From the NCBI RefSeq assembly GCF_032118995.1, contig NC_092648.1, positions 2,061,001-2,125,000 on the forward strand: 64,000 nucleotides of DNA, written 5' to 3'. Position 1 is the first letter of the stretch. Every line of letters begins with the position of its first letter. The stretch comes from Asterias amurensis. Lineage: Eukaryota; Echinodermata; Asteroidea; Forcipulatida; Asteriidae. A model generated the notes under the pieces. The model saw only the letters and a list, made by a program, of their open reading frames with translations, made no database searches and was not told where the DNA came from. Made by a program: the position numbers and the translations under genes. Positions 15,183-48,916 of the stretch are shown here, one piece after another.

Positions 15183-15291
15183 ATGATGTCTACCTGTCTC
15201 AAAATAAATACCTTTGAACTACTAACTATGTACAAGTGCTTGTCATCAGCCTGATGTCTACACATCATCAATGTATGAGGCTTCAACAGAG
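15183..15291 (+). other. Exon-like module P1
   Basis: 109 bases between CCCTCTGCAG and GAG|GTAAGT. It opens with ATGATGTCTACCTGTC, the shared module core, and its second half has CTGATGTCTACACATC. It has the same length and layout as module P9 at 23744. In the frame giving DDVYLSQ a stop follows soon after, so coding is doubtful. Confidence 0.55.
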
Positions 15292-15369
15292 GTAAGTAAA
15301 AATCCCAGAGTGGGATATGTTACTTTTTCTTACGGAGGGTGTGTCAATTAGCTTCCCTGGGCCGACCCC

Positions 15370-15650
15370 GCGGTACTCACTCGGGTGAGCCCCTGACAAG
15401 AGCTAAATGAACAATCACACTCGCCCTCTCGTGGTAACGTCATGCACCTCAGGTCACCCCCAAGTTGGCTCGGGTGAGCCCCTGACAAGAGCTAATCGAA
15501 CGATCACACTCGCCCTCTCGTGGTAACGTCATACACCTCAGGTCACCCCCAAGTGACCCACTCCACAAGCAAGGCACTGGGGGCTGACCCGGGTGAGCCC
15601 CTGGAATGATGTCAAAGCTATTCGAACGCACCGGGGGCAGACCGGGGTTG
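15370..15650. repeat. ~98-base tandem array, GC-rich
   Basis: About 2.7 units of CTCGGGTGAGCCCCTGACAA, CACACTCGCCCTCTCGTGG and CACCTCAGGTCACCCCCAAG. Its base composition is far richer in G and C than the surroundings. Follows module P1. Confidence 0.75.
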
Positions 15651-15949
15651 ACCCAGCGAACCTAAACAAACGCACACACTAACATCAACAAGTGTTGTGG
15701 CCTAGGGTGGTTGCCTAGCCCCTTTCCATGTGCCAAATGTTGGACTCCAGCCACAGCTTCTTGACCCTATGGAAGCCCCCTGTCATGCCTGTACCCACTA
15801 TCAGGGACTGTGATGACTTGTCAAATAAAACTGAGAGCACGCACTTTTTGCCCAAGTTTTTCACTCAAGGTTAAGCTTTAACAGTACTGGCCAGTTTAAT
15901 GTTTTGTATGAAATTTGAAAGCCAATACCTTTCTGATGCCCTGACACAT

Positions 15950-16316
15950 TTAAAGACACTGGACACTATTGGTAATTGTCAAACACCAGTCTTCTCACTT
16001 GGTGTATCTTAACTTATGCATAAAATAACAAATCTGTGAAAATTTGAGCTCAATTGGTCGTCGAAGTTGCGAGAGCACAGTGGAAGAAAAAACGCCCTTG
16101 TCACACAAAGTTGTGTGCTTTTTTAGATGCTTGATTTCTGAGGTCCCAAAATCAAATTCATGGAGAATTACTTCTTTCTCGAAAACTACGATACTTCAGA
16201 TGAGCAGTTTCTCACAAAGCTTTATACTATCAACAGCTCTCCAATGCTTGTTACCAAGTCAGTTTTTAAGTTATTATTTGATTTGAATAGTTACCAAACG
16301 TGTACCTTCCCTTTAA
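15950..16316. mobile_element. TTAA-flanked foldback MITE A, near full length
   Basis: Starts TTAAAGACACTGGACACTAT and ends in a CCCTTTAA version of the inverted end; internal CTTGGTGTATCTTAACTTAT and GATTTCTGAGGTC. The right end is diverged. Confidence 0.65.
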
Positions 16317-16439
16317 AGCAAGTGTTTTGAGGTTACCTGTATGGTGCCTTCTTATATATTAGTCAAATTGTTGGCAATTAGAGGAAAACAACATTACACC
16401 CCTCTTACAGAATATTGTTTTTATTTTGTTTTTGTTTAG

Positions 16440-16506
16440 GAAACCTGAAGACACACCATTGTCAGATGAAGTCTTCTATCTGCTACCTCTCCAAAAGTAT
16501 GTACAG
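16440..16506 (+). other. Exon-like module P2 (short)
   Basis: 67 bases from a TTTGTTTAG acceptor to ACAG|GTTAAT. The first part (CACACCATTGTCAGATGAAG) is shared with P3-P5, and the sequence after the donor (TCATGAACAACC) also matches the intron starts of P3 and P4. Probably a shortened copy. Confidence 0.5.
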
Positions 16507-16544
16507 GTTAATTCATGAACAACCTTTAATATACTTTAATTCTT

Positions 16545-16802
16545 TTTTTTATATGCGAGTCGCCAGACACACAGGGCCTGAAGGCAATTTCAAGGTGTGG
16601 GCTACAATTATGTTATTTCCAGAGGCTGTTGCCACCTACTCCTAGGGCTGAAACAGGGTTACCCCTTTTACAGTCAATACGGATGTAGGCTTGGGTATCA
16701 TCAGTCTGAAGCCTGGCCGGTAGAGCAGAAAGCACTACCTCCCCAAATTTTACGTAGCAAGTGTCACGACCGGGAATCGAACCAACACTCTGCTGATCAA
16801 AC
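16545..16802. repeat. Short interspersed repeat with SINE-like end
   Basis: Has GTGTCACGACCGGGAATCGA and ACCAACACTCTGCTGATC, similar to the end of 23395-23625. Class uncertain. Confidence 0.35.
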
Positions 16803-16919
16803 GTTACTTCAGAGGGATCCATTTCTCACAATTTTTGGTACTATCATTGCTTGTTACCAAGTAAGTTTTTATGGTGATAAATATTTTGAGTAAATACCAA
16901 TAGTGTCCAGTGCCTTTGA
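16803..16919. mobile_element. Partial MITE A
   Basis: CTTCAGAGGGATCCATTTCT to CCAATAGTGTCCAGTGCCTT, one half of the foldback. Confidence 0.6.
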
Positions 16920-17022
16920 AGCATGTCAAAGAACCAACAACAGTCGAATGGCTTGCCCTGTGTTTCTGGGGGAAAGGTTTGGCAGCACATCGCACCACTG
17001 TACTTCCCTACTGGGTGCCAGG

Positions 17023-17200
17023 CCTCATACTTCACGGAGGCAACGAAGGCAATTGCCTCCATGCCCCCTGGTCATTGCCTTGGTGCCCATGAAATGCTCC
17101 AGTACAAATTTAAAATGTCCTCATAGGATGCCCTTTTACCAATAAGAAAATGCCTTGGTGCCCTTGCCCTTTCAAAAACAAAGCACACAGGCCTGGGGTG
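17023..17200. repeat. CAGGCCTG-bounded interspersed repeat
   Basis: Near-complete copy of 3022-3200 (TTCACGGAGGCAACGAAGGC, GAAATGCTCCAG, ACACAGGCCTGG). Lies in the P2-P3 intron. Confidence 0.6.
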
Positions 17201-17322
17201 CTCCCGTAATAGTTCCTTTGTAGCAATTCCTTTGCTCACTTGTTTATCCCTTTGCATTGAACACATTATTGTTAGACACATTCTTTTTCACAGACTCTTG
17301 TATATATTTTGTTCCCATCTAG

Positions 17323-17431
17323 GCTAACTGCAGACACACCATTGTCAGATGAAGTCTACCTCTCCAGAAGTAGATGCACGATGGGAATGCAGCCAAGCTT
17401 CAAGATTCAATGATGTCTGCTCCATCAACAG
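17323..17431 (+). other. Exon-like module P3
   Basis: 109 bases between TTCCCATCTAG and CAACAG|GTAAGT. One frame reads LSDEVYLSRSRCTMGMQPSF before a stop. It is nearly identical to P4 and P5, and the following intron start is also duplicated. Confidence 0.6.
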
Positions 17432-17519
17432 GTAAGTTTATGAACAACCATTAATGAGAGAGTTTGAACAGCTTGATGATACTAGGCTTTGTGAAAATAT
17501 ATAAACATGTTTTGTACCT

Positions 17520-17880
17520 TTAAAGGCAGTGGACACTATTGGTAATTACTCAAAATAATTATTAGCACAAAACCTTACTTGGTAACGAGTAATGGGGAGA
17601 GGTTGGTAGTATAAACATTGTGAGAAACGGCTCCCTCTGAAGCGGTGTAGTTTTCGAGAAAGAAGTAATTTTCCACAAATTTGATTTAGAGGCCCTGAGA
17701 TTTAAAATTTGAGGTCTCCAAATCTAGCATCTGAAAGCACACAACTCCATGTGACAAGGGTGTTTATTCTTTTCATTATTATCTCGCAACTTCGACGACC
17801 GATTGAGCTCAAATTTTCCCAAGTTTGTTATTTTATGCATATGTTGAGATACACCAAGTGAGAAGATTGGTCTTTTAGTG
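17520..17880. mobile_element. MITE A, one end lost
   Basis: Starts TTAAAGGCAGTGGACACTAT; runs through CGGCTCCCTCTGAAGC and the ACACCAAGTGAGAAGATTGG stretch, but the closing inverted end is missing. In the P3-P4 intron. Confidence 0.7.
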
Positions 17881-18198
17881 GTGGGCTATAAATCCAAATA
17901 AGCTTCAGGCATGGTGCCAGGTTTCCAAACTGTTCATGTTAGGTGGCCATGTAATGAAGTGAATGGCCTTTTGACTTTTGTTCTTTCCCTGTCACAATTG
18001 ATACCCCTTATCATTAGCTGTGTCTCAGATCAATGCACAATGGACAATATTTTCATTTTTTTCTAGGGGAAATCTGTGCTGGGTGCATTTGCATTTTGCA
18101 TAGAGTGCTGGGCAAAAATTGTGTGTCCTTGGCAGGCCTGTCCAGCACCGCCCACTGCTGTAGTTTCTGTTTATTATAAAAAGCATGTAAAAGAACCC

Positions 18199-18350
18199 AG
18201 CCGTCGATTTCACCAAATTCTTCCTAACTTAGGATTAATCTTGGACGTACCCAAATACGTAGGACGAATTGAACCCTTCCTAAGTTAGGACGAGTTACTC
18301 GTCCTAACTCGAGATAGGATTGATCCTAGCGCTCGTGAAATCGACTGCTG
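18199..18350. mobile_element. Palindromic MITE with GTCGATTTCAC ends
   Basis: Inverted ends CAGCCGTCGATTTCACC and GTGAAATCGACTGCTG, with a central GTTAGGACGAGT-T-ACTCGTCCTAAC palindrome. Lies in the P3-P4 intron. Confidence 0.6.
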
Positions 18351-18531
18351 AACACTCATAGTAACAAAGAAGGGGCTTTTGCCTAGTGGGTGCTATGACG
18401 ATTCATATAATAATTCCTTAGCAAATCCCTCATCTGATTGTTTCTTTTTGTCGAGCCCCTTGAATACCTTATTGGTAGATACAAGTAGATGTTTTTTTAC
18501 AGAATATTGTTTCTACTTTGTTCATATTTAG

Positions 18532-18639
18532 GCTAGCTGCAGGTGCAACATTGTCAGATGAAGTCTACCTCTCCAGAAGTAGATACATGAGGGGAATACA
18601 GCCAAGCTGAGGGTTCAACCATGTCTTCTCCTTTGAAAG
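18532..18639 (+). other. Exon-like module P4
   Basis: 108 bases between TTCATATTTAG and AAAG|GTAAAT. One frame reads LSDEVYLSRSRYMRGIQPS and then stops. Tandem copy of P3. Confidence 0.6.
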
Positions 18640-18724
18640 GTAAATTTATGAACAACCATTATTGACAGAGTTTGGACAGCTTGATGATACTAGGCTTTGT
18701 GAAAAATGTGAACTTTTACTGCTA

Positions 18725-18990
18725 CTTTTTAACCACTATGGGTTCGAATCCTGTTCGTGGCACTCATGCCCTTGTGATCGAGGCACTTTTGCTTCATCCT
18801 CTAGAAGGACGTAATAGCTATAGGTCTCATTTGTTATGTAAAGCATGTAAAAGAACCCAGAACACTCATGCTGAAAGATAAGGGGCCTGCCCCTTTGTTT
18901 CTGGTTCGGTTTAGCAGCACTTTGTAACACTGCACTGTCCTGGTCAGACTGTCCCTGGTGGGTGCTTTGATGGTTCACATTATATTTCAG
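18725..18990 (+). mobile_element. SINE with tRNA-like B box
   Basis: GGGTTCGAATCCTGTTCGTG then AAAGCATGTAAAAGAACCCA and CTTTGTTTCTGGTTCGG. The middle recurs at 16915-17020 and 18180-18200. Confidence 0.5.
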
Positions 18991-19157
18991 CCTGGTCGTC
19001 AGACTCGCCCTGTATTATGTTACATTTAAAATGGTCTAAACCTAAATGGAAAGTTCATCCATTCATAAAAAATGCAATTAAGCCTCAGGATGTAAATATC
19101 TCTCCAAACCATTGAAGCATGTCTTTGTTCAATATGTTAGGGTCTTAATTTTGTTTT

Positions 19158-19456
19158 TTTACCCATACACGGATGTGTGTTAGCACTGTATACTCAGTAC
19201 TTTCCTGAGTCCTGTGAACAAATATCACAGGCATGTTACTCAGGTGGGATACGAACCCACGACCCTTGCAATTCTAGAGCAGTGTCTTACCAACTAGACT
19301 ACCGAGGTTGCCCGGCAGCTAGAGGCAGTTTGCTCTAGAATTGCAAGGGTCGTGGGTTCAAATCCCACCTGAGTAACATGCCTGTGATATTTTTTCACGG
19401 GACTCGGGGGAAACTACTGAGTATACAGTGCTAACACACATCGGTGTATGGGTAAA
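19158..19456. repeat. Head-to-head SINE pair forming a ~125-base inverted repeat
   Basis: Arms 19158-19281 and 19331-19456 with a 49-base spacer. Each arm carries a tRNA-like B box (GTGGGTTCAAATCCCACC), TAACATGCCTGTGATAT and ACACATCGGTGTATGGGTAA. A single copy of the family lies at 44950-45070. Confidence 0.85.
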
Positions 19457-19670
19457 AGAAAATATCTATAATAATATTCTTTATTCACGATGCGAATTTA
19501 ACATCTCTCATATGGTAGGGTCTGTTCCGAGTGTATTCCTGCACTCTAGTCTTTTATAGTTCCTTCTTAGCAAATCCCTGCTTGTTTCTCTTTGTTCCAG
19601 TACCTTGAATGCCTTATTGGTAGATACATCCCTTTTTACAGAATATTCTTAATATTTTATTCCCATTTAG

Positions 19671-19778
19671 GCTAGCTGCAAACATGCATTGTCAGATGAA
19701 GTCTACCTCTCTAGAAGTAGATGCATGATGGGAATACAGCCCAGCTTCTCGATTCAAGGATATCTTCTCAATCAACAG
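19671..19778 (+). other. Exon-like module P5
   Basis: 108 bases between TCCCATTTAG and ACAG|GTATAT. It is open in the frame SDEVYLSRSRCMMGIQPSFS to the end of the module. Tandem copy of P3 and P4 with its flanking intron sequence. Confidence 0.6.
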
Positions 19779-20526
19779 GTATATTTCTGACCTTTTTAAA
19801 CAGTTTTCCATATAATGTTAAATACATCAAGAGATTTGGAACAGTTCTGTGGTACTAGAAAATTATGTTTTTTTTATTTATTTGAAACTTCAAAATTAAA
19901 TAGTTCAATGATAACTGGTTGATAAGTGAAAAATACAAGTGCATAGTTCCACATTTTGCAACTGCCATGCTTTGCAAAGAAGGATATTGATTATTTATCT
20001 TATACGCGCAGTGTACTTGCATGTGCCTATCCTGGGTGTCTTGTTGGGTGTCAAAATTGTATACAAACATGAACAAAAGAGAGTTGACACCCCAAATTAC
20101 GCGCATTGTTTGTAGGCATGTTCTGTTTCGTGTGAGAAATCAATAGATCCCCCTTGCATAACGCGAAACACTACAGGTACGCTGAGGTTACGCGAACGTT
20201 TTTATGCACAGCGAACAGCTTTTGTTCAATGATCTGCCTCCTTTTTGAGAGTACGACGTCATATGCAATGGGTCTATTTCTTGGGTGTGACTTCGTAATA
20301 GTTTATTTATGAACATTTGGTTTTGTTCCAATTTATGTGCTGTATTTTTATACTCACTTCTTCCCAACTCCTGTAAAGCCAAATTAACAGAGCAAACTGA
20401 GTTGACTTATTACACATTGCTTATCACAAAAAGGGGGACCAATAAATGAGAGGGCAAATGTTAATCTAAAACTTACTGTTATGTTTCATTATCCATGAGA
20501 CTTTTTTATTTGTTTGCATGATACAG

Positions 20527-20621
20527 TGAGGGTTGTCATCTCCACAGAGATCTACTCATCAACCAAGTAGATGTCTGAGACCTGCAGTGGATGAGCTTCC
20601 TAACAATGCACAACGAGTTTG
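20527..20621 (+). other. Exon-like module P6
   Basis: 95 bases between GATACAG and TTTG|GTAAAG. It has GATCTACTCATCAACCAAG then TAGATGTCTGAGACC, the best match to the minus-strand modules. The frame in register with those modules hits TAG after IYSSTK. Confidence 0.6.
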
Positions 20622-20699
20622 GTAAAGGAACTGCTCTCTCCTTCTGAAAAGGTAAGGGAAACTCCTGAATATTAAACAGTTGTGATACAAGATGACAAT

Positions 20700-20995
20700 G
20701 ACTAGGGCGACCTAGTCGAAACGTTGAGACCAATTTAAGAACTGACTTCGCGGTAGTACAGTTAATTTCGATCCTATAAACTAGAGTATAAGTCCCAGCC
20801 TATTTTACATACCATCCGCCCGGGTAATAGTTAAAAAGCAGGACAGTTCTTTTCGGAACTGAGAAATCTCCCGAACACCCGAACAATCTACTCCGCAGTA
20901 GTAGAATAAAGAACAAACTCTACCTGGCAAGTAGATACACACATGGTGTTACCGCAAAGCAAATATATATTGATACCTCACCATGCAATGCCTCA
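20700..20995. repeat. Interspersed repeat D with intact hairpin start
   Basis: Begins with GACTAGG-GCGA-CCTAGTC, a perfect 7-base hairpin, then GAAACGTTGAGACC. The remainder matches 8140-8475 to CCTCACCATGCAATGCCTCA. Sits in the P6-P7 intron. Confidence 0.65.
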
Positions 20996-21551
20996 AATCA
21001 TATATTAAACAGTTGGTCATAAATTTGTTCTAGTTTCCTTCATTTAAATTAATCATGACTTTCCCTCATTGTTAGTTCCACCTAATGCCAGGGGCAGCAC
21101 TGGACTCTAATATTTGAGTTGGGTACAGCATATGATGGGCGAATATTTAAGGAGGTATTTGAATATCTAAATACCTCTGTACTGTAACGTCGAAGCTGAT
21201 CGGCCTGTAGGGGGCGCCAGCATAGCTCCGCTGTGGAGCTTTATGCCGCTGGCTGCTCCCCGTCGAGCAATTGGGTCTCCAAATCTTATTCAAACTGCGT
21301 GAACCGAAAAAGCTAAGCCTATGCTTCAAATACATTTTCAAATACGTTTTTATGGAAGATAGATTTATACAATGTCAAATTGTAGTCTGAAGGAAATTTT
21401 GTCAAGAAAGGTTTGTTATAAAACTAAAGAAACCTACTTCCACAGTGCATGCAGGTTCTTGTTTGTATGGGAGGGGAAGTCACAAATTGTGATTGCCAAA
21501 ATGCAAATCTTGCTGTATGTGACTAGCAAATCTTGCTGTAAGTGACTAATA

Positions 21552-21564
21552 CCCCCCCCCCCCC
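21552..21564 (+). repeat. C13 homopolymer
   Basis: Run of 13 C in the P6-P7 intron. Confidence 0.9.
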
Positions 21565-21682
21565 AACAAATACATTGAATTTGATTTGAATCAGCGACTC
21601 ATTTTCAAAACAAAAAACAAATGAGGACAGGTTCAGATTTAGTGCGACAAAATTAAATGATTTGTTAATTTTATTTTCACAG

Positions 21683-21783
21683 AGTTAGTAATGCTGAAAT
21701 GAGATCAACCCGTCAACAACGTGGATGTCTTCACTATACATGACAACCTTGAATGTTGAATGTTTCTTCTGGCAAAAGATGAG
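21683..21783 (+). other. Exon-like module P7
   Basis: 101 bases between TTTTCACAG and GAG|GTAAAT. It is a diverged copy: ATCAACCCGTCAACAACG then GGATGTCTTC sits where P6 has its core. Confidence 0.45.
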
Positions 21784-21835
21784 GTAAATTTATGAACACG
21801 TACATCTCGGAAATGCCAAACATTAATGGTTTGGT

Positions 21836-22435: not shown

Positions 22436-22530
22436 TGAGGGTTGTCATCTCCACCGAGATCTACTCATCAACCAAGTAGACGTCTGAGACCTGCAGTCGA
22501 TGAACTTCCCAATAATCTACGATGAATCAG
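22436..22530 (+). other. Exon-like module P8
   Basis: 95 bases between GATACAG and ATCAG|GTAAAT. Near-identical to P6 (same length; core ATCAACCAAGTAGACGTC). Confidence 0.6.
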
Positions 22531-23743: not shown

Positions 23744-23852
23744 ATGATGTCTACCTGTCACAGAGTAGATTCTTGAGACCTGCAACTGCGTATAGTCAGC
23801 CCACTGTCTACACATCACGAGTTAAGATGTGTGAGGGTTACGCAAGAGGAAG
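23744..23852 (+). other. Exon-like module P9, fully open
   Basis: 109 bases between TATCTGTAG and AAG|GTAAAA. It is open throughout in one frame: DVYLSQSRFLRPATAYSQPT then VYTSRVKMCEGYARGR. It is the counterpart of P1. This is the best candidate for a module that still encodes protein, but no family is recognised. Confidence 0.55.
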
Positions 23853-25108
23853 GTAAAATACCTGTGGTTGTTTTACACTAACATCAAAGGGTGGTCTGTT
23901 TTTGCAGCACTCATACCAACAGAATATCTCGTCACATACCACAACATTTTTGGGGATGAAATGCTGGCACCAGCCTAACCCGAAATGCGAGGTCCGTCCC
24001 TACAGATTGATTACAGATTTAAAAGATAGGAAACATGTTTTTGATTAACAAAACCCCTTTAACTGTACAAAAAAAATACAAAAAGGTTTTTAGTACAAAC
24101 CAATGATAGTTAAACCTTAAACTAGGAATGAAATTATTTTGCATTGTATGATGATAAGTAAAAGATCTGGAATGTGCTGAACACCATGCCTGACCGAAAA
24201 CATATTTACAAAATTTAGTTCAGGCAAACGAGATCCAGTTTGTTTAATGTACACTTTGGCAAATATTATTTGAAAATTGGAATGTTGTATAAATGGAGTC
24301 ACCATTAATGGATCACATATTTTGATGACAAGGGCAAATTAAACGCCACAAGTTAGGGCTAGTTCATTTAATAATAACAAATAATAATAACAAATATAAT
24401 AATAGTGGCAATTTATAATGTGCCATGTCTGTCTAAAAGACACTCCTGGCGCAGGAGAGATGCAGAAGCAAGATTGCAATGAGTTACATTGTTAAGCATA
24501 AATAGAAGTTTTTGACTTCCTTGTTTTGTGTCCTGTTACATCTTAGGACACCTCAATGTTTCCATTTCACAGCATGAAAGAGCTTGTATCCTACTTTGTG
24601 TAGCAAATATCTTTCATTACAATCTTGAAATCTTCAGAGTTTGAGAGAAAAACTAATAGTATTGAAACACCAAGGTTTTCAAGCCATTCTATTAAATAAA
24701 GGAATGATAAATGAGGAACAAGCTTGTTGATTTCATTTGTAAAATTGTAGACATGTTAATTAATGATGTCAGACATAGAGGTAATCTAACATTCAAGTTT
24801 AATGTTCTTGTAAAAAGTAAGTGTACCATTTGCAAGCAAGCACACAATGTGTGTATTTTGAACTCATAATGTTGGAGAAAAATGTACTGTTTCTCGGGTG
24901 GAATACTTCTCGAGAGAGTGGCTTTAAGATTTCAGAAAAATAGTGGGTCTGGTATAGACTATTGTTACCAGGAGGAAAAAACCTTATCTTATAATTAGAT
25001 TTCTTGCAAGGTACACTTATTTTACTCCACAACTTAAAGCTACACAAAAGTAAACTAATAGCTCAATAATTATAAGTAGCCATATTCTTTGCTCTTAATG
25101 TTGTTGAC

Positions 25109-27665: not shown

Positions 27666-27929
27666 GCTAACCAGCAAACTCCCCGCCCCTTGCCCGGCAG
27701 TCTCAGAGCAGAGGCAACCCTTACCCTAGCCCACTGAGCAACCTCCTTGGCCCCTCAGCACTTAGAAATTTTACTCCTCCAGCCAAGCTCCAAGGCCCTT
27801 GGTAGGCCCTGGTCAACTCTCAGATCAGCTAGAAATCCAAGGGTTGAGCCAGGGAAAAATAAATTCTGAAATATTTTCTAAGTCAGCCATTTTTAACTTC
27901 ATCACTCCAAAAACCGTTAGATTTTTATA

Positions 27930-28010
27930 ACAGCTCAGTAGCACAGCAGTGAGAGAAAGTGCTTACAGAGTGGAAGGTCCCCGGTTCAAGCCCTGCACAT
28001 TTTTATCAGA
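27930..28010 (+). mobile_element. tRNA-like sequence (pseudo-tRNA or SINE head)
   Basis: A-box-like CTCAGTAGCACAGCAGTGAG and B box CGGTTCAAGCCCTG, but no paired acceptor stem. Confidence 0.35.
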
Positions 28011-28035
28011 ATTATAAAAAAAGTCTTTTTTTAAT

Positions 28036-28132
28036 GGTAAAAGGGTCCCCGGAGGGATTTGAACCCACCCTGCTCACAGCTCCAGGATTCCTGGGGCTGT
28101 GAGCTAGCCCGCTGCGCTACGGCGGCTCTTGA
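28036..28132 (-). mobile_element. tRNA-like sequence with long extra stem
   Basis: The minus strand has GCCGTAGCGCAGCGGGCTAG and GGGTTCAAATCCC, with CTCACAGC/GCTGTGAG pairing around CCAGGAATCCTGG. The ends do not pair as an acceptor stem, so a SINE head or pseudogene is likelier than a working tRNA. Confidence 0.35.
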
Positions 28133-28654
28133 AAAATTTGCTCGGAACTAATATTTAAACCTTAGAATGGAAAAGCCGCATAAAAAAAAAATTGAGATGC
28201 ACCATATGACCTTTGACCTTAGCAAGAGTCACAAGAAAAAAGATAGAATAAAGACATGCCAGTTGGTGTATGTTAAATAAAGGTTTATTTCCAGAACAAA
28301 TATAAACAATACAAATATTTCCAGATGTCTTTAACGAGTAAAGCTATACACCTTTAAGACTACATTAAATATTTTAATACTTAAAACAAGTAACATTTAA
28401 AAAGATCACAAAATTACAAAGAACTACAACAAATTTGTTTCTCAAGTAAACGCAAAGACTACAAACCTTACAAGTAATTTTACAATCTAAACTAACAACA
28501 TAAATAATACAAAATAATTAACAGAGTACCGTAATGGACCTTATGCACATGACATCATTTGCGTAAAGCGCAATCAACTACGGGTCTAAAGAAGGTTGCG
28601 CACCGACCCAACCACTACAAAATGCGTATTGCCACCATTTAATACCTAAAGTCT

Positions 28655-33715: not shown

Positions 33716-33869
33716 AGAACATGTACTTATTATAAGCTTTTATTTAAAACACTAAAATATTAATTTATTTAAGTAAACCATTATACATAAGTACACCATC
33801 ACAATCATTTTTTTGTCATCAGATTTTGCTGATTTTCATCCTGGTAAGCTTAGTTCAATTAGCAGGGCT

Positions 33870-34235
33870 ACCAACGTGCAGGTTCCAGGATACCAGCCCC
33901 ACACGCTTTCTGAGATCGTAAGAGCCAATTGCACCGCCCCTTAAGGGGACGGGTCCGGTCCACTGTCCCAACTTCGGCGCCAGGACAGCCTCCCTACTCT
34001 TACTAACGCGGTCCCTAGTTGAAAGGACTAGGGACTACTTCCGTTGGTCAACCATTTGTGATAACACCGGCACCATCCTGACAGATGAGGAGCCCAAATG
34101 CACCTTTAAGATCAACCACCCAGTGGCCCGAGCCGGAAGTAGGACCCCACATGCCACGTGCACGTGTCCAGGTCCCTTTAATCTAACCGCTGCACCACAA
34201 AGATCGCTTAATTTGCTTGCAAGCGCATTATGCAA
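33870..34235 (-). mobile_element. tRNA-derived SINE, minus strand
   Basis: The minus strand begins GTGGTGCAGCGGTTAGAT (A-box-like), with a degenerate B box near GGTCCTACTTCCG, then a GC-rich body with AAGTTGGGACAGTGGACCGG. Confidence 0.45.
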
Positions 34236-35110: not shown

Positions 35111-35465
35111 AATTAGAACGACTCTTGAAGGAAGTGATTGAAGTAGCTTGGCTAACAATAAGATGAAGACTGTTTCATAAGGTGGGAGCAGCAATGAATC
35201 CCATATCGGGAAGTAGAGACTCTGTGGGGAATTGCATTTGACACTGTGATGATGAGCGAAGACAACGAGGATGTGTATTATACAAAGTTATCAGTTCGGA
35301 GATACATGTAGGAGCGAGATCATGTAGAGACTTGTAAGTGAGCAACCATGGACTCAATATGGTCCTTGATCGGCAGCCAGTAGACACAGCGAAGAATAGG
35401 GATGATGTGCTCATTTCTTGGAGACCGTTCCACAAGGCGAGTGACAGTGTTCTGAAAACATTGTA
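35110..35465 (-). mobile_element. LINE 3' fragment (CR1/L2/Rex1-like RT C-terminus)
   Basis: Minus-strand frames give VERSPRNEHIIPIL, VYWLPIKDHI, LLTYKSLHDLAPTCISELIT, THPRCLRSSSQ and LPDMGFIAAPTL, the usual order after the RT domain of CR1/L2-type LINEs (LPV-R..YK.L..T.KALH..AP.YL). At least two frame changes and no upstream RT domain: a 5'-truncated, decayed copy. The adjacent 135-base array at 34748-35110 runs straight into it and is probably its tandemly repeated tail. Confidence 0.7.
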
Positions 35466-35825
35466 GCTTATTCAGTTCATAAAAACACATCTATAATACC
35501 TTACTGTTTAAGATAAACTGATTGTTACAGCCATAATTGCGTGCAGCTAAGATGTGGTGACTATAGCGATGTTTTTATATGCGTTGCTCTCCTTTATACA
35601 CGTATACATGATGATATCAGTAGTGGTGATTCAATTCTGCGCTTCTTTTCAGGAAACCATTCCTCACATCTCCGTCTCTGAAAGGTCAAGTTTGAAGAAG
35701 AAAAAAAGTATATATCAGCCAACAGTTTTTATTTACACAATACAGTGCAGAGTAGATTTGAACTGGTAAAGCCCCCTAACAGGGTATTAAATCTTGATTA
35801 AAAGTGTGATAAAATATCTTTTTTT

Positions 35826-41528: not shown

Positions 41529-41534
41529 AAAGGC

Positions 41535-41700: not shown

Positions 41701-41812
41701 ATGTACAGTGCCTTTTTAAAAACAAGAGTAACATCATGCATTCTGCATAATTGTTACAGAGTTCCATTCAAGACTGGGGTAAATATCAAAAGTAATCTTG
41801 TTATGAACTCGC

Positions 41813-41913
41813 CTTTGACTTGAGAGTGTACACGTAGCTCCTTTATTGTCAGCTGGTCTTGGATGGATCCACTTGCGTTGAGGGAAAGACGTCTTTGCAG
41901 ATGTTAAGCTTCA
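41813..41913 (-). other. Exon-like module M1
   Basis: 101 bases from TTGCAG to AAAG|GCGAGT, a GC donor where its sister M2 has GT. It reads VKLNICKDVFPSTQVDPSKT then stops. Its downstream flank is the unoccupied counterpart of the MITE-bearing intron beside M2. Confidence 0.5.
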
Positions 41914-41973
41914 CTGCAACACAAACAAACAAAATGTATCTGATATTTTCCATCCGATTTATACATGTTTTTT

Positions 41974-42125: not shown

Positions 42126-42335
42126 ATTTTGCATTGCATCGATGCAAAAAAAATAAAAAAAATAAAACGCTCACTGAGCGATAAACTCCAAACGCGAAAT
42201 TAGATTATTGATTTCTCATCAAATATGACATTTTAGACAATGTTTTCAACTATCATGAACATTAGATCGTGTAATTTTTTACCAATTCTGTAACGTTACC
42301 TAAAGCAAAAAAAACCTAAAGAAAATTGGATTTTG

Positions 42336-42737
42336 GGGTTAAAGCCATTGGACACTTTCGAAACAGAATTTTACTCACAGGGTTTACAGAAGGTAATGGT
42401 GAAAGACTTCTGGTGAAACATTTTTCCATGAAATGCTTTACTTTTTGAGAAAACATTAAAACAATATAGATTCTGGATATCAAGAATTACGGATTTATTT
42501 TTGAGAAAACATTAAAACAATATAGATTCTCGATATCAAGAATTACGGATTTATTTTAAACATGTGTCATGACACGGCGAAACGTGCAGAAACAAAGGTG
42601 GGTTTTTCTGTTATTTTCTCCCGACTTTGACGACCAATTAAGCCTAAATCTCAGTTTGTTATTTTATATAAAAGTTGTGATACACAACGTTTGGGCTTTG
42701 GACAATACTGTTTATCACAAGTGACCAATGGCTTTAA
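42336..42737. mobile_element. MITE B
   Basis: TTAAAGCCATTGGACACTTT to AAGTGACCAATGGCTTTAA are imperfect inverted ends in TTAA context. Internal TTCTCGATATCAAGAATTAC is duplicated. The same family in reverse lies at 54941-55297. Confidence 0.7.
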
Positions 42738-42879
42738 AAATAAAAAAAAGGTGGATTTCTGATTGAAATCTGAAAAGTCGCATCTCTACTAAACAATGTC
42801 GTGTGCGGAAGTGACTTGATTTTTCATAAACCATTTCAAGATACTATTTGCAATGTTGTGAAATCAAACTTACTTAAGT

Positions 42880-43005
42880 CAATTCTAACCTCTCAGGTGA
42901 TTTTTGCGCAGGTCAAGTCACAAGTCATTTTTGTCCAAGTCAAGTCAAGTCGCAAGTCAACAAAATTGGTGACTCGAGTACAAGTCACCGACTTAGGTCA
43001 ACAAC
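42880..43005. repeat. CAAGTCACAAGTC-type degenerate repeat
   Basis: Runs of AAGTCAAGTCGCAAGTC ending in GACTCGAGTACAAGTCACC; a smaller cousin of 49190-49445. Confidence 0.55.
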
Positions 43006-43102
43006 ACTGCTAGGCGCAATATAAAATCTGAGCCATGTTTTGGAAGAGTAACGACACGCATTCTGCACATTTATTACAGAGCTCCATTCAGGACAGGGGT
43101 AC

Positions 43103-43346
43103 ATAGAGTTATATATAAGAACTAGAGGGCGCACTGGTGATGCTGTTTGCACAAACGCAACAGGACCGCGAGGAGACACGTGCGCGCCATTCTGTCTGCG
43201 CGTTGAATATAAAACACACATTGGAATTTGTGTTTGTTGAACCCTACGCAATGCTGTTTTTGTCAACTTAGAAAATGGCTGCCTGAGAGCATGTCGGGTC
43301 TCGTATATAGGCCAGTGCGCCCTCTAGTTCTTATATGTAATTCTAT
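43103..43346. mobile_element. TIR MITE inserted in a duplicated intron
   Basis: 36-base inverted ends (CATAGARTTAYATATAAG then AACTAGAGGGCGCACTGG) with about two mismatches, flanked by GGTA on both sides. The paralogous flank of M1 at 41779 has a single uninterrupted GGGGTAAATAT. Confidence 0.8.
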
Positions 43347-43382
43347 GGGTAAATATTAGAAGCAATCTTGTTTTGAACTCAC

Positions 43383-43660
43383 CTATGACTGAAGACTGTA
43401 ACGCTTGTCAAGGTTTACACTCTACCGACGGGAAAAGACCAGGAATGCAACACACATCATTCCTGACATGTGTGCAACGTCTGCTTGGAGATGATAAAGG
43501 CATATGCTTTACAACCAAGCCAAATCTCCACACTTGCCCAAGATTGTCTTAGTTGGAAGAAGCTTGTAGTCCCCTGCTCCGCAGCCGAAGGATGATGATG
43601 TCTGTAGCTCCTTCATGATAGGTTCGTCTTGGAGATCTACTTCGCTGATGCCAAGCCTTA
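43383..43660 (-). other. Exon-like module M2, long form with an open frame
   Basis: 278 bases from TTTTGCAG to ATAG|GTGAGT. In the module frame it is open for about 50 codons: VRLGISEVDLQDEPIMKELQ, then TSSSFGCGAGDYKLLPTKTI, LGKCGDLAWL and a stop, about 125 bases before the donor. Compared with M1 it lacks the GTCTTTCCCTCAAC core but has about 200 extra bases before a shared end. It could be a terminal coding exon or a chance open frame. Confidence 0.45.
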
Positions 43661-43949
43661 CTGCAAAAAAAAAAAAGATGCACCATTAGAAACATGAAGT
43701 GTTTATAGAACATTAAACATCATTAATACAAGTTGTTTCCACCAAAGTTATTCTTAAATAAAAAAAAGTAACAAACACAAAACATTAAAACAGCATTGTT
43801 TTTTATGAGGACTTTTATTTGCTGAGCTCTCAGAATGAATGTATATAATTGACAACTAGTAAAGCTAACCATTTATCTGAATATTTCAGTTTAAAAATTC
43901 TGACAAATTAAGCAACCCAGCCTTTCATTGTTGCAATGATTGCCAAATA

Positions 43950-44120
43950 ACACATTGCCACGAATCGGGCGAATTGGTCTATGAAAAGCATTTGAAACCA
44001 TATGTTATAAAATGTCTATGTTTAGCAAGACGTTTCAGTAGTAAAATATAACTAATAAGCCTCAAAATTGCATGGTTTTCCTTTTACGTCATGAACTAAA
44101 ACGGCACGAGTGTTCCTTTA
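43950..44120. repeat. GGAACACGTTGCC-family MITE fragment
   Basis: GGGCGAATTGGTCTATGAAA, GTTATAAAATGTCTATG and GTGTTCCTTTAA match the 49535 copy. In the M2-M3 intron. Confidence 0.5.
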
Positions 44121-44222
44121 ATCATCGAAATGCTACAAGAATATGATTCATACTAATTTCTGTCCAAAAAAGAGCAACAGCAATTATTACAGATTACATA
44201 TGTAAACCGTTTGGGAATTCAC

Positions 44223-44309
44223 CATTTACTGGAGAATGCAGCTGGTCTGGTCTTCCTCTTGGACAGTAACTTGTTGATGGGTAGATGTCTTTGGTGATGT
44301 TAAGCCCGA
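44223..44309 (-). other. Exon-like module M3, fully open
   Basis: 87 bases from TTTGCAG to ATG|GTGAAT. It reads VGLNITKDIYPSTSYCPRGR then PDQLHSPVN with no stop. 87 is divisible by three, so it could be included without changing frame. Confidence 0.55.
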
Positions 44310-44773
44310 CTGCAAAAAAGGCACAATTAGTAAAATCAAGTGTATAACAACAACACCTATCATTAAATAAATTGTGTTCACCCAAGATTGTTTTAATACT
44401 CTAAATAAGAAATTTAATAAACATAACAAAAGAGTTTGGAAGACCACATTCTTGAACTCTCCTCTAGAACATTGGTTTGGGTATGAATTCATTAGTTAGC
44501 TCTCAGAAGGGAATTTGGCAAGCTAAAAAGATGGGCATTTGTGTTTAGTCAGAGGCATCCTTTAAGGTCTTTCCCATAAAATCTGGAAGAAAAATTGACA
44601 GAAATAAACAAGCCAGTCTTCCAATATTGCAACAACATTACATATACCATTTGAATGAATTGCAATGCTACAAGATCAACACATACTAACAACATGTCAT
44701 CTGCACAGTTATTACATCTGGCTTCATTTAAGACCAGGGTACGACATTAAAATTAAACATTTCAGAGTCTCAC

Positions 44774-44843
44774 CATTACTGGAGACCGAAGCAAATCCTG
44801 ATCTTGTTGAAGGGTAGATGTCTTTAAAGATACTAAAGCAACA
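44774..44843 (-). other. Exon-like module M4
   Basis: 70 bases from TTGCAG to ATG|GTGAGA. It holds GACATCTACCCTTCAACAAG. Relative to M3 and M5 it carries a one-base length change before the core, so the shared frame is not kept. Confidence 0.5.
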
Positions 44844-44949
44844 CTGCAACACAAACAAAAATGCACAATTAGCAACAAAGATAAGTGTTTAAGAACATAA
44901 CCCATCATTAAAACGAATTGTTTCCACCCAAGTATTTCTTCAAGAGTTT

Positions 44950-45070
44950 AAATTGCAAGGGTTGTGGGTTCGACTCCCACCCGAGTAATATGCCTGTGGT
45001 ATTTGTTCACAGGACTCAGGGAAAGTACTGAGTATACAGTGCAGACGCACATCGGTGTATGGGTAAAAAA
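44950..45070 (+). mobile_element. SINE fragment, same family as 19158-19456
   Basis: TTGCAAGGGTTGTGGGTTCG, CCACCCGAGTAATATGCCTG and ACATCGGTGTATGGGTAAAA. Lies in the M4-M5 intron. Confidence 0.7.
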
Positions 45071-45541
45071 GAAGAAAAAAAATTAAATAAACTACCAAAA
45101 ATAAATAAAACTTAATATTCAATAGTATTAAATAAGAATACATAAACTTAGAACATTAAAATGTTTGGTGGAACCACAGTAAACGTCAAATACTTGAGGT
45201 GTCCTTTAAGAGTATTAGTTCTGGTATTAAATTTTTAGCAAGCTCTCAAAAAGGAAATTTGACAACTGGCAGTCAAAAAGTTAACAAGAAAATATGAAAA
45301 AAATTCTGGGTTTTTGTGTTTAGCTAGCACACTTTGATTAAGGGTTTTCCGATAAAATCTTTTGAAAAACTGGCAAAAATAAACAACCCAGACTTTCAAT
45401 GTTGCAATGGTTTCCAAATGACATTACATATATCTTTTGAATGAGTTACAATACTACAAATATATGACCGTTACTAATTTCTGTTAAAAAAGGAGCAACA
45501 ACATGCAATCTGCGGACACAGAGCTCCATTTAATAATTCAC

Positions 45542-45622
45542 CTTTAACTGGAGAGTGCAGCTAGTCTGGTCTTGGACATCTAATCGTTGAAGGGTAGACG
45601 TCTTCGGTGATGTTCAGCCTGA
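45542..45622 (-). other. Exon-like module M5
   Basis: 81 bases from TTCGCAG to AAAG|GTGAAT. It reads VRLNITEDVYPSTIRCPRPD then stops. It gives the clearest nucleotide match to plus-strand modules P6 and P8, including TAGATGTC--AGACC after the core. Confidence 0.55.
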
Positions 45623-45915
45623 CTGCGAAAAAAATATATATAAAAAAATGAACAATTATCAACATTTAGTGTTTAAACATTATTCATCATTCAAACAGTT
45701 AGGTTAAGATAATTTTCCTTAACCTTTACAGATTATTATATCAACCTAAAATATTTTATCTCAACCTAAAAGAAGTGAACACAAGGCCAACAATGAAAGC
45801 AGCAAATTCTAACGGGAGAAACCCATGCATTGCTTTTATTGTTGCAATCAAAATAAGCTACAGTAATTTTGAGTGACCTTCTTAATTGTATGCCTGAAAC
45901 AGATCTAAGAGTAGA

Positions 45916-46230
45916 ATGTCATGGTCGAATTCAAGTTCTGGTGCTAAGTCACCATAATGTGGGTTCGAATCCCGGGCGTGAAACTTGTGTCCTTGAGCAA
46001 GATACTTTACTATAATTGCTTCTCTTCACCCAGGGGTATATGTGGGTACCTGCGAGGGTAGAGGTTGATATTGTGAATGAAAAACCTTCGGAGCGCCACG
46101 GCAGCTCGGGGCTGTATACTCCCTATTGGGAGCTGAGAAAGATTAAAGGGATGTTATTGGCCCAATGACCAGGGCACCAATGTAAAGCGCATTGATACGG
46201 TTATTGCAAAATGCGCTATAAGAATTTGTT
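45916..46230 (+). mobile_element. tRNA-derived SINE
   Basis: B box GTGGGTTCGAATCCC, then GTCCTTGAGCAAGATACTTT, AGCTCGGGGCTGTATACTCC, TGACCAGGGCACC and the 3' end AATGCGCTATAAGAA with a TTATTATTAT tail. Lies between modules M5 and M6. Confidence 0.7.
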
Positions 46231-46784
46231 ATTATTATCTCAAGGATTGGTGCTGGTATAAGTTTTACAGATCAATGTGCTTTCGTTCAAATTGAAACCA
46301 ATCTAGTCAGTGACAAACCATAACAACTTTTATCAAAAAGCTCACAACAGCAGATTTCAGTGAGGTTAAATGCCTGAAACAGATCTCAAGGATTGGTGCT
46401 GGTATGAATGTTTGTTATCAGTAAGCTCGCAGAATTAAACAGATCTAGTAGGTGGTAAACCGTAACTTCTGCTTACAGAGAATTTGTCAAGATATTTCTG
46501 TTTCGAATATGAAGAATATTCCTGATAGACTTCCCCAAATTTTTACAACCCAGCCATTTCCCTCTCAATCGATTGTCAAATAACATACAAAAATGTCAAG
46601 GAAAAATACTTTGCCTCATTTCAGCCCTTGAAGATTGCCCAGTCATCCCTGCAAAGAATCATACAACATTGCATAAATAAAGACACAATAACATCAAAAT
46701 GCTGAATGCAAAAACACCTAGGTAAAACAAAATTGTCTGTGTTCAGCTTCCATGACAACAAGAATTCATGACATAAGACAGCTT

Positions 46785-46935
46785 TCTCCAGAAGACGATC
46801 AGAGCATACTGATCGAGACGTCGGTTTGAAACCAACGGTTCTTTTCAGAGCCACCCCAACTCATTAGAGATAGTCATTACATGGTGTTACCGCAAACCTT
46901 TCTATATCGTATTTCCACCATGCAAAGTTTCAAAT
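46785..46935. repeat. Interspersed repeat, D-like
   Basis: Hairpin GATCAG-AGCATA-CTGATC followed by GAGACGTCGG, then CATGGTGTTACCGCAAACC as in repeat D. Confidence 0.5.
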
Positions 46936-47383
46936 CCTACGTATAAGGCAACTTCACGGACATCCTTCTAGTGAAATTTATAACAAGTATTTTTGCTAAG
47001 CAGTCAAGTAGTGCCTTGAATTCAAACTTAAGACAAAAGTTTTCAATATTTGTGCATAATCAGGCCTTCCTCAATTTGTTTCCCCTGTCCTAACTCCAGT
47101 CAGCTGTACATTTAAACAATATGCATACATTTTTGACAAACCTAACTAATATTTTCATGACAAATTAAATGGTTTCTATTTCTCTGTAGCCTTTAGGGCT
47201 ACTTTACAAGCAGGTTTGACTAGCCCCCAGCACTCTAAGTTTTGTACACTTAGAGTGGTTGAGCTTATCCTAGTTTGGTTGATCGTGTCTCGAATATCTA
47301 CAGTAACTTGTCAAGACCTATGAGGTTTGAAATTGTTGTCACAATTAACTACAGGTTTGCAATTTGTTTAAGTCTTAACTCAC

Positions 47384-47467
47384 CATGACCATAGCTCATC
47401 ACCATCTTCTCCCTGTCTCAGACATCATCATCCAAGTGTCCGTCTTCAAGTAGTTGAAACATCTTGA
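47384..47467 (-). other. Exon-like module M6 (diverged)
   Basis: 84 bases from CTAACAG to ATG|GTGAGT. It has the same start type (TCAAGATG) and donor as M3-M5, and contains GATGATGTCTGAGAC. Likeness to the others is weak. Confidence 0.35.
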
Positions 47468-48193
47468 CTGTTAGGGCTGACCACCAAGATTATCCCTGCC
47501 AGCTGGAAAATGAAAAGGACAATTTTGGGGCATCAATCATTCCGGGACAATTTTGGGGGCATGGTGATCTCCGAACAAGAGTCACGCTAAAGCCCGGTTT
47601 ATACTTCCTGCGAATGCGAAGCAAATTTGGCAGTTTTTGCAGTGAATTTTTCGCAGGAGTTGAACACATCTTAACTGTTGCTAATTGTTAAAATTGTACG
47701 AATTATTCAATTTGAATCGCATTTGCATGAAGTATGAACCAGGCTTTAGCCAACCTTCTCATGGGTGTGGCCATAGCAAAGGAAGTTTGCTCTGCCTTGC
47801 CGAGGCGTTTACCCTTCTGTTGAGTATGGCCCTGGCAAAAGATGTGTTTTTTTACTCTGCCCTATGAATCCATTGTGCCAATACACAGAATTATACTAGT
47901 TATTGCACAAAGAATCTTCCTCGTGCACTAAAACAAACTCTTTTTTTTTGCAGCAAAAAAAAGCATGACCATTGGTTTAAAGATCAAATTTTATTTCACA
48001 TCAACAAACCAAGCAACTAAAGTCTGAAAAAAAACCCCAAGATTATTACTCGTGTCAGGAACGCCAAGACTTTACACTGTGTTTTCCAGGGTTCAATGGC
48101 ACAACTGAGAAATGAAAAACAAGGCAATCAGCTGATCAGCTCAAGGGTTGAGAATGTCTGCATAAAAAGATTATAATAAATAGTTTGACTCAC

Positions 48194-48916
48194 TGGTCTC
48201 ATCAGGAGATGTGGTCATCATGACATGGCTTTGCTGTCTAATCAGGAAGACATATCAAGTGCAACTGGTTGGTTGACTGCTGCCAGCGGAGTATGACGTG
48301 ACATCAGGGTAGATGTGCAACTGGCTGGCTGACTGCTGCCACCGGAGTACGACGTGACATCAGGGTAGATGTGCAACTGGCTGGCTGACTGCTGCCACCA
48401 GAGTACGATGTGACATCAGGGTAGATGTGCAACTGGCTGGCTGACTGCTGCCAGCGGAGTACGATGTGACATCAGGGTAGATGTGCAACTGGCTGGCTGA
48501 CTACTGCCACCGGAGTATGACATGACATCAGGGTAGATGTGCAACTGGCTGGCTGACTGCTGCCACCAGAGTATGACATGACATCAGGGTAGATGTGCAA
48601 CTGGCTGGCTGACTACTGCCAGCGGAGTATGACATAACATCAGGGTAGATGTGCAACTGGCTGGCTGACTACTGCCACCGGAGTATGACATGACATCAGG
48701 GTAGATGTGCAACTGGCTGGCTGACTGCTGCCACCAGAGTATGACATGACATCAGGGTAGATGTGCAACTGGCTGGCTGACTGCTGCCAGCGGAGTATGA
48801 CATGACATCAGGGTAGATGTGCAACTGGCTGGCTGACTGCTGCCACCAGAGTACGACGTGACATCAGGGTAGATGTGCTGTCTGTCCCCAGTCCATCCAC
48901 AATGGCCCACGATCTA
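48194..48916 (-). other. Exon-like module M7 expanded by a minisatellite
   Basis: The acceptor ACATTGCAG at 48918-48917 and a possible donor CCA|GTGAGT near 48193 enclose the 56-base array. Each unit contains CACATCTACCCTGATGTC, close to the module core. As 56 is not a multiple of three, successive units change frame. Confidence 0.35.
48251..48885. repeat. 56-base minisatellite inside module M7
   Basis: About 11 units of GTGCAACTGGCTGGCTGACT, GCTGCCACCGGAGTATGA and CATGACATCAGGGTAGAT with few differences (CAGCGG or CACCAG; CGACGTG or CATGACATG). High identity suggests recent expansion. Confidence 0.95.

Follow-up and report, generated by a model that had tools for sequence, protein, structure and literature searches.

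Convergent mini-exon arrays at dozens of loci in the sea star Asterias amurensis: candidate paired genes for spliced non-coding RNAs of repeated modules

Two arrays of short, mutually similar exon-like modules converge on opposite strands of chromosome 1 (C1) of Asterias amurensis, which raises the question of what kind of gene, if any, they represent. The window analysed here is a 64,000-nucleotide stretch forming part of this chromosome (NC_092648.1, positions 2,061,001 to 2,125,000). A sequence-only reading of it recognised no gene family and offered three interpretations: a non-coding RNA gene that expands by duplicating its exons, a decayed fast-evolving gene, or a source of double-stranded RNA (dsRNA). 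The locus that it described belongs to a set of 47 or more. The explanation favoured here, to which a probability of roughly one half is assigned, is that these are paired, spliced non-coding RNA genes composed of repeated modules, whose RNA would most likely act as a protein-binding platform.

All four core strings quoted in the sequence-only reading are present in the window, on the strands it gave, and its nine plus-strand mini-exons were recovered between 15183 and 23852. The plus arm consists of the following parts.

13496..13720, plus strand: putative 5' end of the arm, from the alignment of two copies, with the YY1-like GCCGCCATTTT
15183..15291, plus strand: exon P1, P9-like, with an AG acceptor and a GTAAGT donor (11.7 bits), from the P19 model
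16440..16496, plus strand: exon P2, partial and of P3 type, from splice signals and family models; donor weak (5.1 bits)
17323..17431, plus strand: exon P3, from splice signals and family models
18532..18639, plus strand: exon P4, tandem duplicate of the P3 unit, from splice signals and family models
19671..19778, plus strand: exon P5, tandem duplicate of the P3 unit, from splice signals and family models
20527..20651, plus strand: exon P6, from splice signals and family models
21683..21783, plus strand: exon P7, diverged, from splice signals only, the family models giving no match
22436..22530, plus strand: exon P8, acceptor low (1.9 bits), the same acceptor recurring at other loci
23744..23852, plus strand: exon P9, the last recognised in this arm, acceptor low (3.3 bits), matched by family models

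The putative 5' end is followed in the window by a GTAAAC donor that is absent from the C1:442k copy. Joint duplication of exon and intron within an arm, as had been proposed, is borne out by the 82% identity between 17257-17497 and 18460-18705.

The minus-strand modules, previously put at about seven, number seven or eight; eight candidates were found from 48916 down to 41813. Across the two arms, most modules have an AG acceptor rich in pyrimidines and a donor that begins with GT.

48194..48916, minus strand: exon M1, 723 nt, mostly eleven 56-bp tandem repeats
47384..47495, minus strand: exon M2, from splice signals
46500..46760, minus strand: conserved stretch near the 5' end of the arm, containing candidate exon M3
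46615-46648, minus strand: candidate exon M3, donor practically absent (1.1 bits)
45542..45622, minus strand: exon M4 (M5 of the sequence-only reading), with two choices of AG start, 45622 or 45618, from family models
44774..44843, minus strand: exon M5, from splice signals and family models
44223..44309, minus strand: exon M6, from splice signals and family models
43383..43660, minus strand: exon M7, long (278 nt), from splice signals
41813..41913, minus strand: exon M8, with a GC donor, from family models

The 56-bp repeats of M1 have ACATCTACCC and GATGTC in common with the core and are possibly truncated copies of it; the family models gave no match to them. The homology claimed between the cores of the two arms is modest on the window sequence alone, where a model built from P6 and P8 matches two M exons (E 0.0028) and a model built from four M exons matches P6 (E 0.0004). 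It becomes strong after other loci are added, at which point it rests on iterated models that had pulled in both exon kinds.

Between the arms lie three conserved blocks, for which no strand is assigned, and the satellite, whose presence there is confirmed.

23853..24060: conserved block A, immediately following P9
27745..28140: conserved block B, 86-99% identical at C1 loci and 81-87% on most chromosome 8 (C8) loci
33800..34180: conserved block C, with 95-100% identity at 35 of the 40 places scored
35827..41497: 60/120-bp satellite, found also in C1:435k, C1:2355k and C1:4650k

Block A is 94-98% identical in C1:2355k, C1:4650k and C6, and C1:435k and C8 retain just the final part of it (91-96%). 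No part varies less from C1 to C8 loci than block C, whose surroundings at the scored places show poor alignment or none; the block is absent from C1:4650k and was not found beside seven of 40 block B places among the matches listed. It is G+C-rich, has no Rfam family, has a better predicted fold on the minus than on the plus strand (z -2.24 and -0.32, a weak difference) and contains ETS- and E-box-like words. A tRNA-like match in block B reached only E 2.8, which is meaningless by itself. Each of the blocks may act as a promoter, a terminal exon or a polymerase III element.

The same order, with plus-type exons followed by blocks B and C, the satellite and minus-type exons on the opposite strand, recurs across the genome. 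With blocks B and C as anchors, at least 47 loci were counted, at least 22 of them within the first 5.5 Mb of C1 and at least 18 within the first 7.2 Mb of C8, so that 40 of the 47 among the matches listed are on these two chromosomes and the family is confined mostly to two chromosome ends. The copies are dispersed in both orientations and the number of exons per arm varies between loci. Both arms were found at 20 of the 47 loci at the first search depth, with five more once right-end places were added; at the same depth no P arm was found at 15 loci and no M arm at 22. All 93 P places lie upstream of the anchors on the same strand, as do all 58 genome matches listed for a P-core pattern. The palindromic-core pattern gave 85 listed matches, 73 of them on C1 and C8: 72 lie downstream on the opposite strand, one in a P arm on the P-arm strand, two downstream on the same strand, one within a P zone but on its opposite strand and nine outside every listed unit. 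Reversed-pattern controls gave no genome match, against 58 and 85 for the core patterns. The arm ends fit a single layout too: counting the window, the 5' end of the plus arm occurs at nine places, in every case within a unit's upstream zone and on its P strand, and the 46500..46760 stretch at 12, in every case within the M zone and on the M strand. The C1 loci follow one another at steps of about 255 kb among those listed and are more evenly spaced than random (coefficient of variation 0.46 versus 0.96, P printed as 0.0000 from 20000 placements); for the C8 loci listed, no clear regularity emerges (P 0.053).

A unit scattered in many copies that face either way is reminiscent of a transposable element, and a core occurring genome-wide as an ordinary transposon was part of the outcome that the sequence-only reading had named as fatal to its case. 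However, the unit has a fixed internal order, and all 58 P-core matches listed fall on C1 and C8. In the window's own unit, comparison of 12000-16000 with 46000-52000 on both strands gave no terminal-repeat match at E 0.01. Among ORFs of at least 90 aa in the unit outside the satellite, 13 of 14 had no Pfam match at E 0.01, although a non-autonomous element would have none anyway; a transposon was rejected as the identity of the unit. Large segmental duplication together with neighbouring genes was rejected as well: at E 1e-5 the LRR gene adjoining the plus arm matches just one site genome-wide, and what the flanks of four other loci share with the window is largely dispersed short repeats. 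A link to sex chromosomes was also considered and rejected. The published candidate sex region is on chromosome 10 at 7-12 Mb, with similar signs on chromosome 5 at 13-14 Mb (PMC11757944). It is on neither C1 nor C8, on the assumption that contig numbers equal chromosome numbers, which is verified for the longest only.

The exons are distinguished by their splice signals and by the confinement of conservation to them. Both signals are present on 86 of 97 non-internal exon matches and on 755 of 4000 random segments (18.9%), the pattern to be expected if the exons belong to a spliced long non-coding RNA gene; the remaining 11 matches lack one or both. Similarity between loci ends near the exon edges and the introns do not align. 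In profiles of three exon types (521, 110 and 164 exon pairs, each pair drawn from different stretches), the matched fraction is 0.55-0.95 within exons; it drops to 0.34-0.45 over the 25 bases that follow an exon and does not exceed 0.10 more than 75 bases away in either direction.

No clear coding constraint accompanies this conservation. Frame is not kept across the exons as in a mini-exon protein gene: their lengths divide 25/34/27 by remainder modulo three (n = 86), 32 of the 44 internal deletions are out of frame, and the tandem periods of 50, 56 and 58 are likewise not divisible by three. Stop changes are not depleted among non-synonymous changes (14/215 and 14/103, against 4.7% and 6.3% expected). 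The P345 consensus exon has one open frame, P68 a different one and the M exons two, whilst 12 of 14 spliced arms contain no unusual ORF. On the other side, exons are somewhat more open than shuffling predicts, 43 of 86 being closed in all frames (51 expected) and 11 having two open frames (4 expected). The RTC-TAC frame (frame 0) is open in 24 of 61 core-bearing exons, as against 9 and 9 for the others, and in P345 exons the nonsynonymous/synonymous ratio is 0.61 in this frame, compared with 0.71 and 1.49. Two arms have ORFs seldom equalled after shuffling: in the window that of the M arm (97 aa, reached in 4 of 200 shuffles), and at the C6 locus that of the P arm (103 aa, 5 of 200). This openness, frame bias and pair of long-ORF arms may therefore reflect a coding past, although a protein product is unlikely. 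Of the three original interpretations, the one with most support is a non-coding RNA gene that expands through exon duplication, on the basis of exon-limited conservation, splice signals and broken frames.

The element that has multiplied is the core module, roughly 40 nt long, the commonest form of which among M and P68 exons is TCCAAAGACATCTACCCATCAACAAGTAGATGTCCAAGACCA. It has grown by exon duplication within arms and by tandem copying inside a single exon, as at C1:2397073-2397584 with a period of 58 bp. The core is nearly palindromic (GACATCTAC ... GTAGATGTC), and a stem-loop was therefore considered. A conserved hairpin was rejected by a covariation test on 114 matches, which yielded 69 distinct arm pairs scoring at least 12; in these, 448 of 621 cells were paired, compared with a shuffle mean of 457, and 987 of 1000 shuffles scored at least as high.

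On the favoured explanation, the unit would be a pair of convergent RNA genes spanning about 30-35 kb, each transcribed inward from its outer end, with the transcript spliced into a non-coding RNA carrying many copies of the module. The two genes would meet at the centre that holds the short conserved non-coding blocks and the satellite, and copying of the whole unit would account for its 47 or more positions, most of them on C1 and C8. Transcription and splicing of the arms are predicted from these features. Because it is the module itself that has multiplied, rather than a reading frame or an intronic element, the RNA might further serve as a multivalent platform or decoy for a module-reading protein; since the module sequence differs between exon types, a fixed protein site remains putative. 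It is also conceivable, if very unlikely, that twin genes set at fairly even steps along the C1 and C8 ends produce module-repeat RNA that acts in cis, each on the chromosome stretch around it, for example as repeated entry or boundary sites; we know of no such chromosome-region-specific arrangement in any animal.

Since the convergent layout recurs from locus to locus, the dsRNA interpretation has to be weighed: the two transcripts would overlap centrally, forming long dsRNA that is processed into siRNAs or feeds piRNAs, with the spliced exons as by-products. The satellite and conserved blocks do sit where such transcripts would overlap, and this scenario is compatible with the main reading. 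Nevertheless, exons and splice sites, and not the overlap alone, are kept between loci, and the homologous cores have the same sense in both predicted transcripts and would therefore not pair as sense and antisense; as the principal explanation dsRNA is unlikely. Another alternative is a functionless family that spread by duplication, with exons recognisable only through youth or conversion. The poor splice sites of P2 and M3, the matches lacking signals, the variable exon number and the absence of block C from C1:4650k would all fit such a family. However, neutrality predicts that exons and introns diverge together, whereas they diverge unequally, and block C is retained almost unchanged amid surroundings that hardly align, making this account rather unlikely.

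Primacy of the DNA blocks, as chromatin boundary, enhancer or RNA polymerase III element with arm transcription secondary, would accommodate the constancy and composition of block C and the even spacing of the C1 loci listed, but it leaves the conserved exons and splice sites unexplained and sits poorly with the loss of block C from one locus, the lower identity of block B on most C8 loci and the C8 spacing; it is judged improbable. A fast-evolving or decayed mini-exon protein gene is disfavoured by the shift of open frame between P345 and P68, the undepleted stops and the ordinary spliced arms, and, even with the ORF of the window's M arm on its side, is very unlikely. The tandem duplication of exon and intron units also recalls a host gene for intronic snoRNAs or miRNAs such as mammalian SNHG14, which is described as a long non-coding host built of such units (PMC11608373, PMC4742849). 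In SNHG14, with its IPW-A exons and SNORD116/115 introns, each unit yields an intronic snoRNA, whereas the starfish family keeps its exons and its introns turn over; a box C/D snoRNA per intron is not indicated here, there being no intron conservation between loci and no snoRNA family at cutoff. Known RNAs were rejected: a tRNA within a repeat is the only family at the gathering score in the window, other matches fall below cutoff and the strongest sub-threshold miRNA matches lie in a tRNA-like inverted repeat. A small-RNA host is extremely unlikely. SNHG14 is not known as a convergent pair or as a family of dozens of loci.

Further parallels to paired genes for module-repeat RNAs are offered by long non-coding RNAs (lncRNAs) with internal repeats. 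NORAD is reported to consist mostly of repeated units and to act on Pumilio proteins (PMC4947167). The starfish module, in contrast, has only a putative partner. NORAD is a single gene and is not known to form a multi-exon convergent family. In Firre (PMC4820808) and Xist, modules repeated inside one lncRNA are reported to carry function. These are single loci, whereas in the starfish the core occurs in separate exons and in tandem arrays, along both arms and at 47 or more loci. No paper describing the family was found in the open-access literature searched, mostly by title and the start of the abstract. The non-coding RNA passage of the published assembly description counts only miRNA, tRNA, rRNA and snRNA, and the family would therefore probably lie outside that annotation.

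If transcribed, these loci would constitute a multi-locus spliced non-coding RNA family in which selection keeps the exon, and not the intron or a protein, and in which a short module multiplies through the duplication of exons as well as through tandem expansion within one. The family would then provide some 47 natural replicates within one genome for asking which part of a non-coding RNA matters.

The exons and cores described in the sequence-only reading were recovered in the window. Scoring with a generic splice matrix called nine plus-strand mini-exons (P1-P9, the P arm) and eight minus-strand candidates (M1-M8, the M arm), and the quoted copies of the core, a module of roughly 40 nt repeated in the exons, were located. 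P2 and M3 are weak candidates, the donor of M8 is GC, and 56-bp repeats make up most of M1, which is 723 nt long. The tandem duplication of exon plus intron that had been proposed is clear for P3, P4 and P5, and the observation as a whole is both real and unusual.

Together with the satellite and conserved blocks between them, the two arms form a unit that recurs in the genome. The window was compared with five other loci, four across 40-50 kb and a fifth across 10 kb; its centre aligns almost end to end with the locus at C1:2355k (C1 being the contig, taken as chromosome 1, on which the window spans C1:2061001-2125000) and in parts with the others. Non-repeat homology has limits near 13.5 kb and 49 kb, and the two ends of the window's unit, when compared with each other, display no direct or inverted similarity. 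The LRR gene just upstream of the plus arm occupies a single place in the genome and thus did not accompany the unit when it was copied.

Features of the unit and its surroundings in the window:
10559-12343, minus strand: gene for an LRR protein (Pfam, LRR only), which we take to resemble DRC5/TCTE1
13450-13760: putative 5' end of the plus arm
19155-19457: inverted pair of tRNA-Ser-like genes forming a long hairpin (ARAGORN, 19235-19308 minus and 19309-19377 plus), with a sub-threshold match to the miRNA family MIR3440 on both strands; this repeat has a second copy at 44951-45070
27745-28140: conserved block B
27930-28126, plus strand: tRNA-like stretch in block B, seen by eye only
28044-28126, minus strand: tRNA-like stretch in block B (15.6 bits, E 2.8, not significant)
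about 33800-34180: conserved block C
35175-35471, minus strand: ORF resembling, by eye, a LINE reverse transcriptase tail, with no Pfam match at E 0.01
46500-46760: stretch near the start of the M arm
46832-46877: sub-threshold match to the histone 3' UTR stem-loop (30.2 bits vs a cutoff of 34), within a repeat also present in other compared loci
61896-62430, minus strand: C-type lectin domain (PF00059, E 2e-8)

Copies of these elements were sought across 491,506,623 bases on 23 contigs. As queries, the P3 and P8 exons each return at least 40 places and M6 returns 28. A 34-base P core, allowing three mismatches at most, is found at 58 places (C1, 45; C8, 13) and a 28-base palindromic core at 85 (C1, 67; C8, six; seven other contigs, 12 in all), with no matches in the whole genome for the reversed P pattern or for the control of the palindromic core. 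Anchored on block B (best 40 of 57 candidates scored) and block C (best 40 of 122), at least 47 loci are present in the genome: at least 22 on C1 (0.15-5.5 Mb), at least 18 on C8 (0.29-7.2 Mb), at least two each on C6 and C13, and at least one each on C10, C16 and C20. The units are oriented both ways (21 plus, 26 minus). The C1 loci found, at least 22 within 0.15-5.5 Mb, are more evenly spaced than under random placement: their spacing has a mean of 255 kb and a CV of 0.46, against a mean CV of 0.96 in 20000 random placements over the same span (P printed as 0.0000); for the C8 loci found, the CV is 0.68 (P 0.053). The palindromic core also has isolated good matches distant from the listed units, at C6:22946378, C15:17509346, C2:11719590, C20:5692603 and C6:23270661. 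Two exon matches on C11 both have a donor, and one of them a clear AG acceptor.

The order and strand of the parts are largely constant. Relative to the block B and C anchors, all 93 P places tested lie upstream of B, within 25 kb and on the same strand, and 47 of 63 M places are on the opposite strand, 6-35 kb downstream. When all 34-base P core matches are used, 58/58 fall in the expected place. Palindromic cores lie in the M zone on the opposite strand in 72 of 85 cases, with one in the P arm on its strand, two on the same strand within the M zone, one on the other strand within the P zone, and nine elsewhere; the three out-of-strand cores (C1:3078994, C1:5377152, C8:2924180) are a single variant, GATGTCTACACTTCAACAAGTAGATGTC. 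Nine genome places carry the putative plus-arm 5' end and 12 carry the stretch near the M-arm start, window included, all in the proper zone and strand, and the latter supplies an M arm to five loci previously known by P only. Before these five are added, a P arm was seen at 32 of the 47 loci, an M arm at 25 and both at 20; at five loci known only by a diverged copy of C (86-88% identity; C8, C13, C20) no arm was found among the P and M places entered.

Within these units, the exons are the part kept between loci. Family models gave 114 non-overlapping matches in the sequences compared, of which 76 of 77 full-length exons were aligned with 400-base flanks in pairs from different stretches, with results for three exon types (521 P345, 110 P68 and 164 M pairs). 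The matched fraction is 0.55-0.95 within exons, 0.55, 0.66 and 0.53 (P345, P68 and M, respectively) in the last 25 bases 5' of the exon, 0.38, 0.45 and 0.34 over the 25 bases immediately 3' of it, and at most 0.10 in all three types beyond 75 bases on either side. This drop is not imposed by the models, whose training set consisted solely of exons. Among 97 matches, excluding inner copies of tandem arrays, an acceptor is present in 95, a donor in 88 and both signals in 86, while 755 of 4000 random segments pass the same two-signal test. Conservation also extends to three non-exon blocks. Block A, directly 3' of P9, is 94-98% identical in three relatives and less so in two others; block B is 99-100% identical in C1:2355k and 81-87% at most C8 loci; and block C is 95-100% identical at 35 of the 40 best scored places, on four chromosomes, with surroundings in which identity drops to 64-86% or the alignment stops. 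The locus at C1:4650k lacks block C, and for seven of 40 scored B places no block C was found alongside. No Rfam family is matched at its cutoff by any of the three blocks.

It is unlikely that the exons are coding at present. All three frames are closed in 11 of the 17 window exons (P1, P3, P4, P6, P7, P8, M1, M2, M4, M7, M8), with one or two open in P2, P5, P9, M3, M5 and M6. Exon lengths are distributed 25, 34 and 27 by remainder modulo three, 32 of 44 internal deletions break the frame, and P345 and P68 differ in which consensus frame is open, with M exons having two open. Stops account for 14 of 215 non-synonymous changes (4.7% expected) and 14 of 103 (6.3% expected), and a Pfam scan of 13 ORFs of the unit gave no match. 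A coding ancestor is possible: 43 of 86 exons are closed in all frames against 51 given by shuffling; of 61 exons, 24 have the RTC-TAC frame open and nine each the other two; the P345 nonsynonymous/synonymous ratio is 0.61 in this frame, 1.49 in frame 1 and 0.71 in frame 2; and ORFs that few shuffles reach occur in two of 14 arms (97 aa in the window M arm, 4/200; 103 aa in the C6 P arm, 5/200). We favour convergent pairs of spliced non-coding RNA genes forming one family, with a probability of about 0.8. In the portions of the open-access literature available, including A. amurensis papers, no description of this exon and block family was found; among the systems described there, SNHG14, with its IPW-A exons and SNORD116 introns, is closest in layout and NORAD, Firre and Xist in supposed mechanism. 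The family is assigned to none of these.

The core has multiplied in two ways, by forming separate exons and by tandem repetition. An array of eight copies at C1:2397073-2397584 (period 58 bp) has one acceptor before it and one donor after it, which places it within one exon; further tandem matches, known from the core alone, run from C1:4870052 onward (58 bp) and at C1:854372-855652 (50 bp). The 56-bp array of M1 has ACATCTACCC and GATGTC with the middle absent, and may be related to the core. None of these periods (58, 50, 56) is divisible by three. A 9-bp stem could be formed by the commonest core; over 69 distinct arm pairs, however, bases pair no more often than in shuffled columns, and the hairpin is rejected as a conserved structure. 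If the core is kept at all, it is as sequence. Such growth would raise the number of modules per RNA, and because of this increase the RNA might serve as a platform whose many module copies bind a protein. We regard this mechanism as tentative and rather doubtful; for the statement as a whole, that these are convergent pairs of spliced non-coding RNA genes whose products would act as such platforms, the odds appear roughly even.
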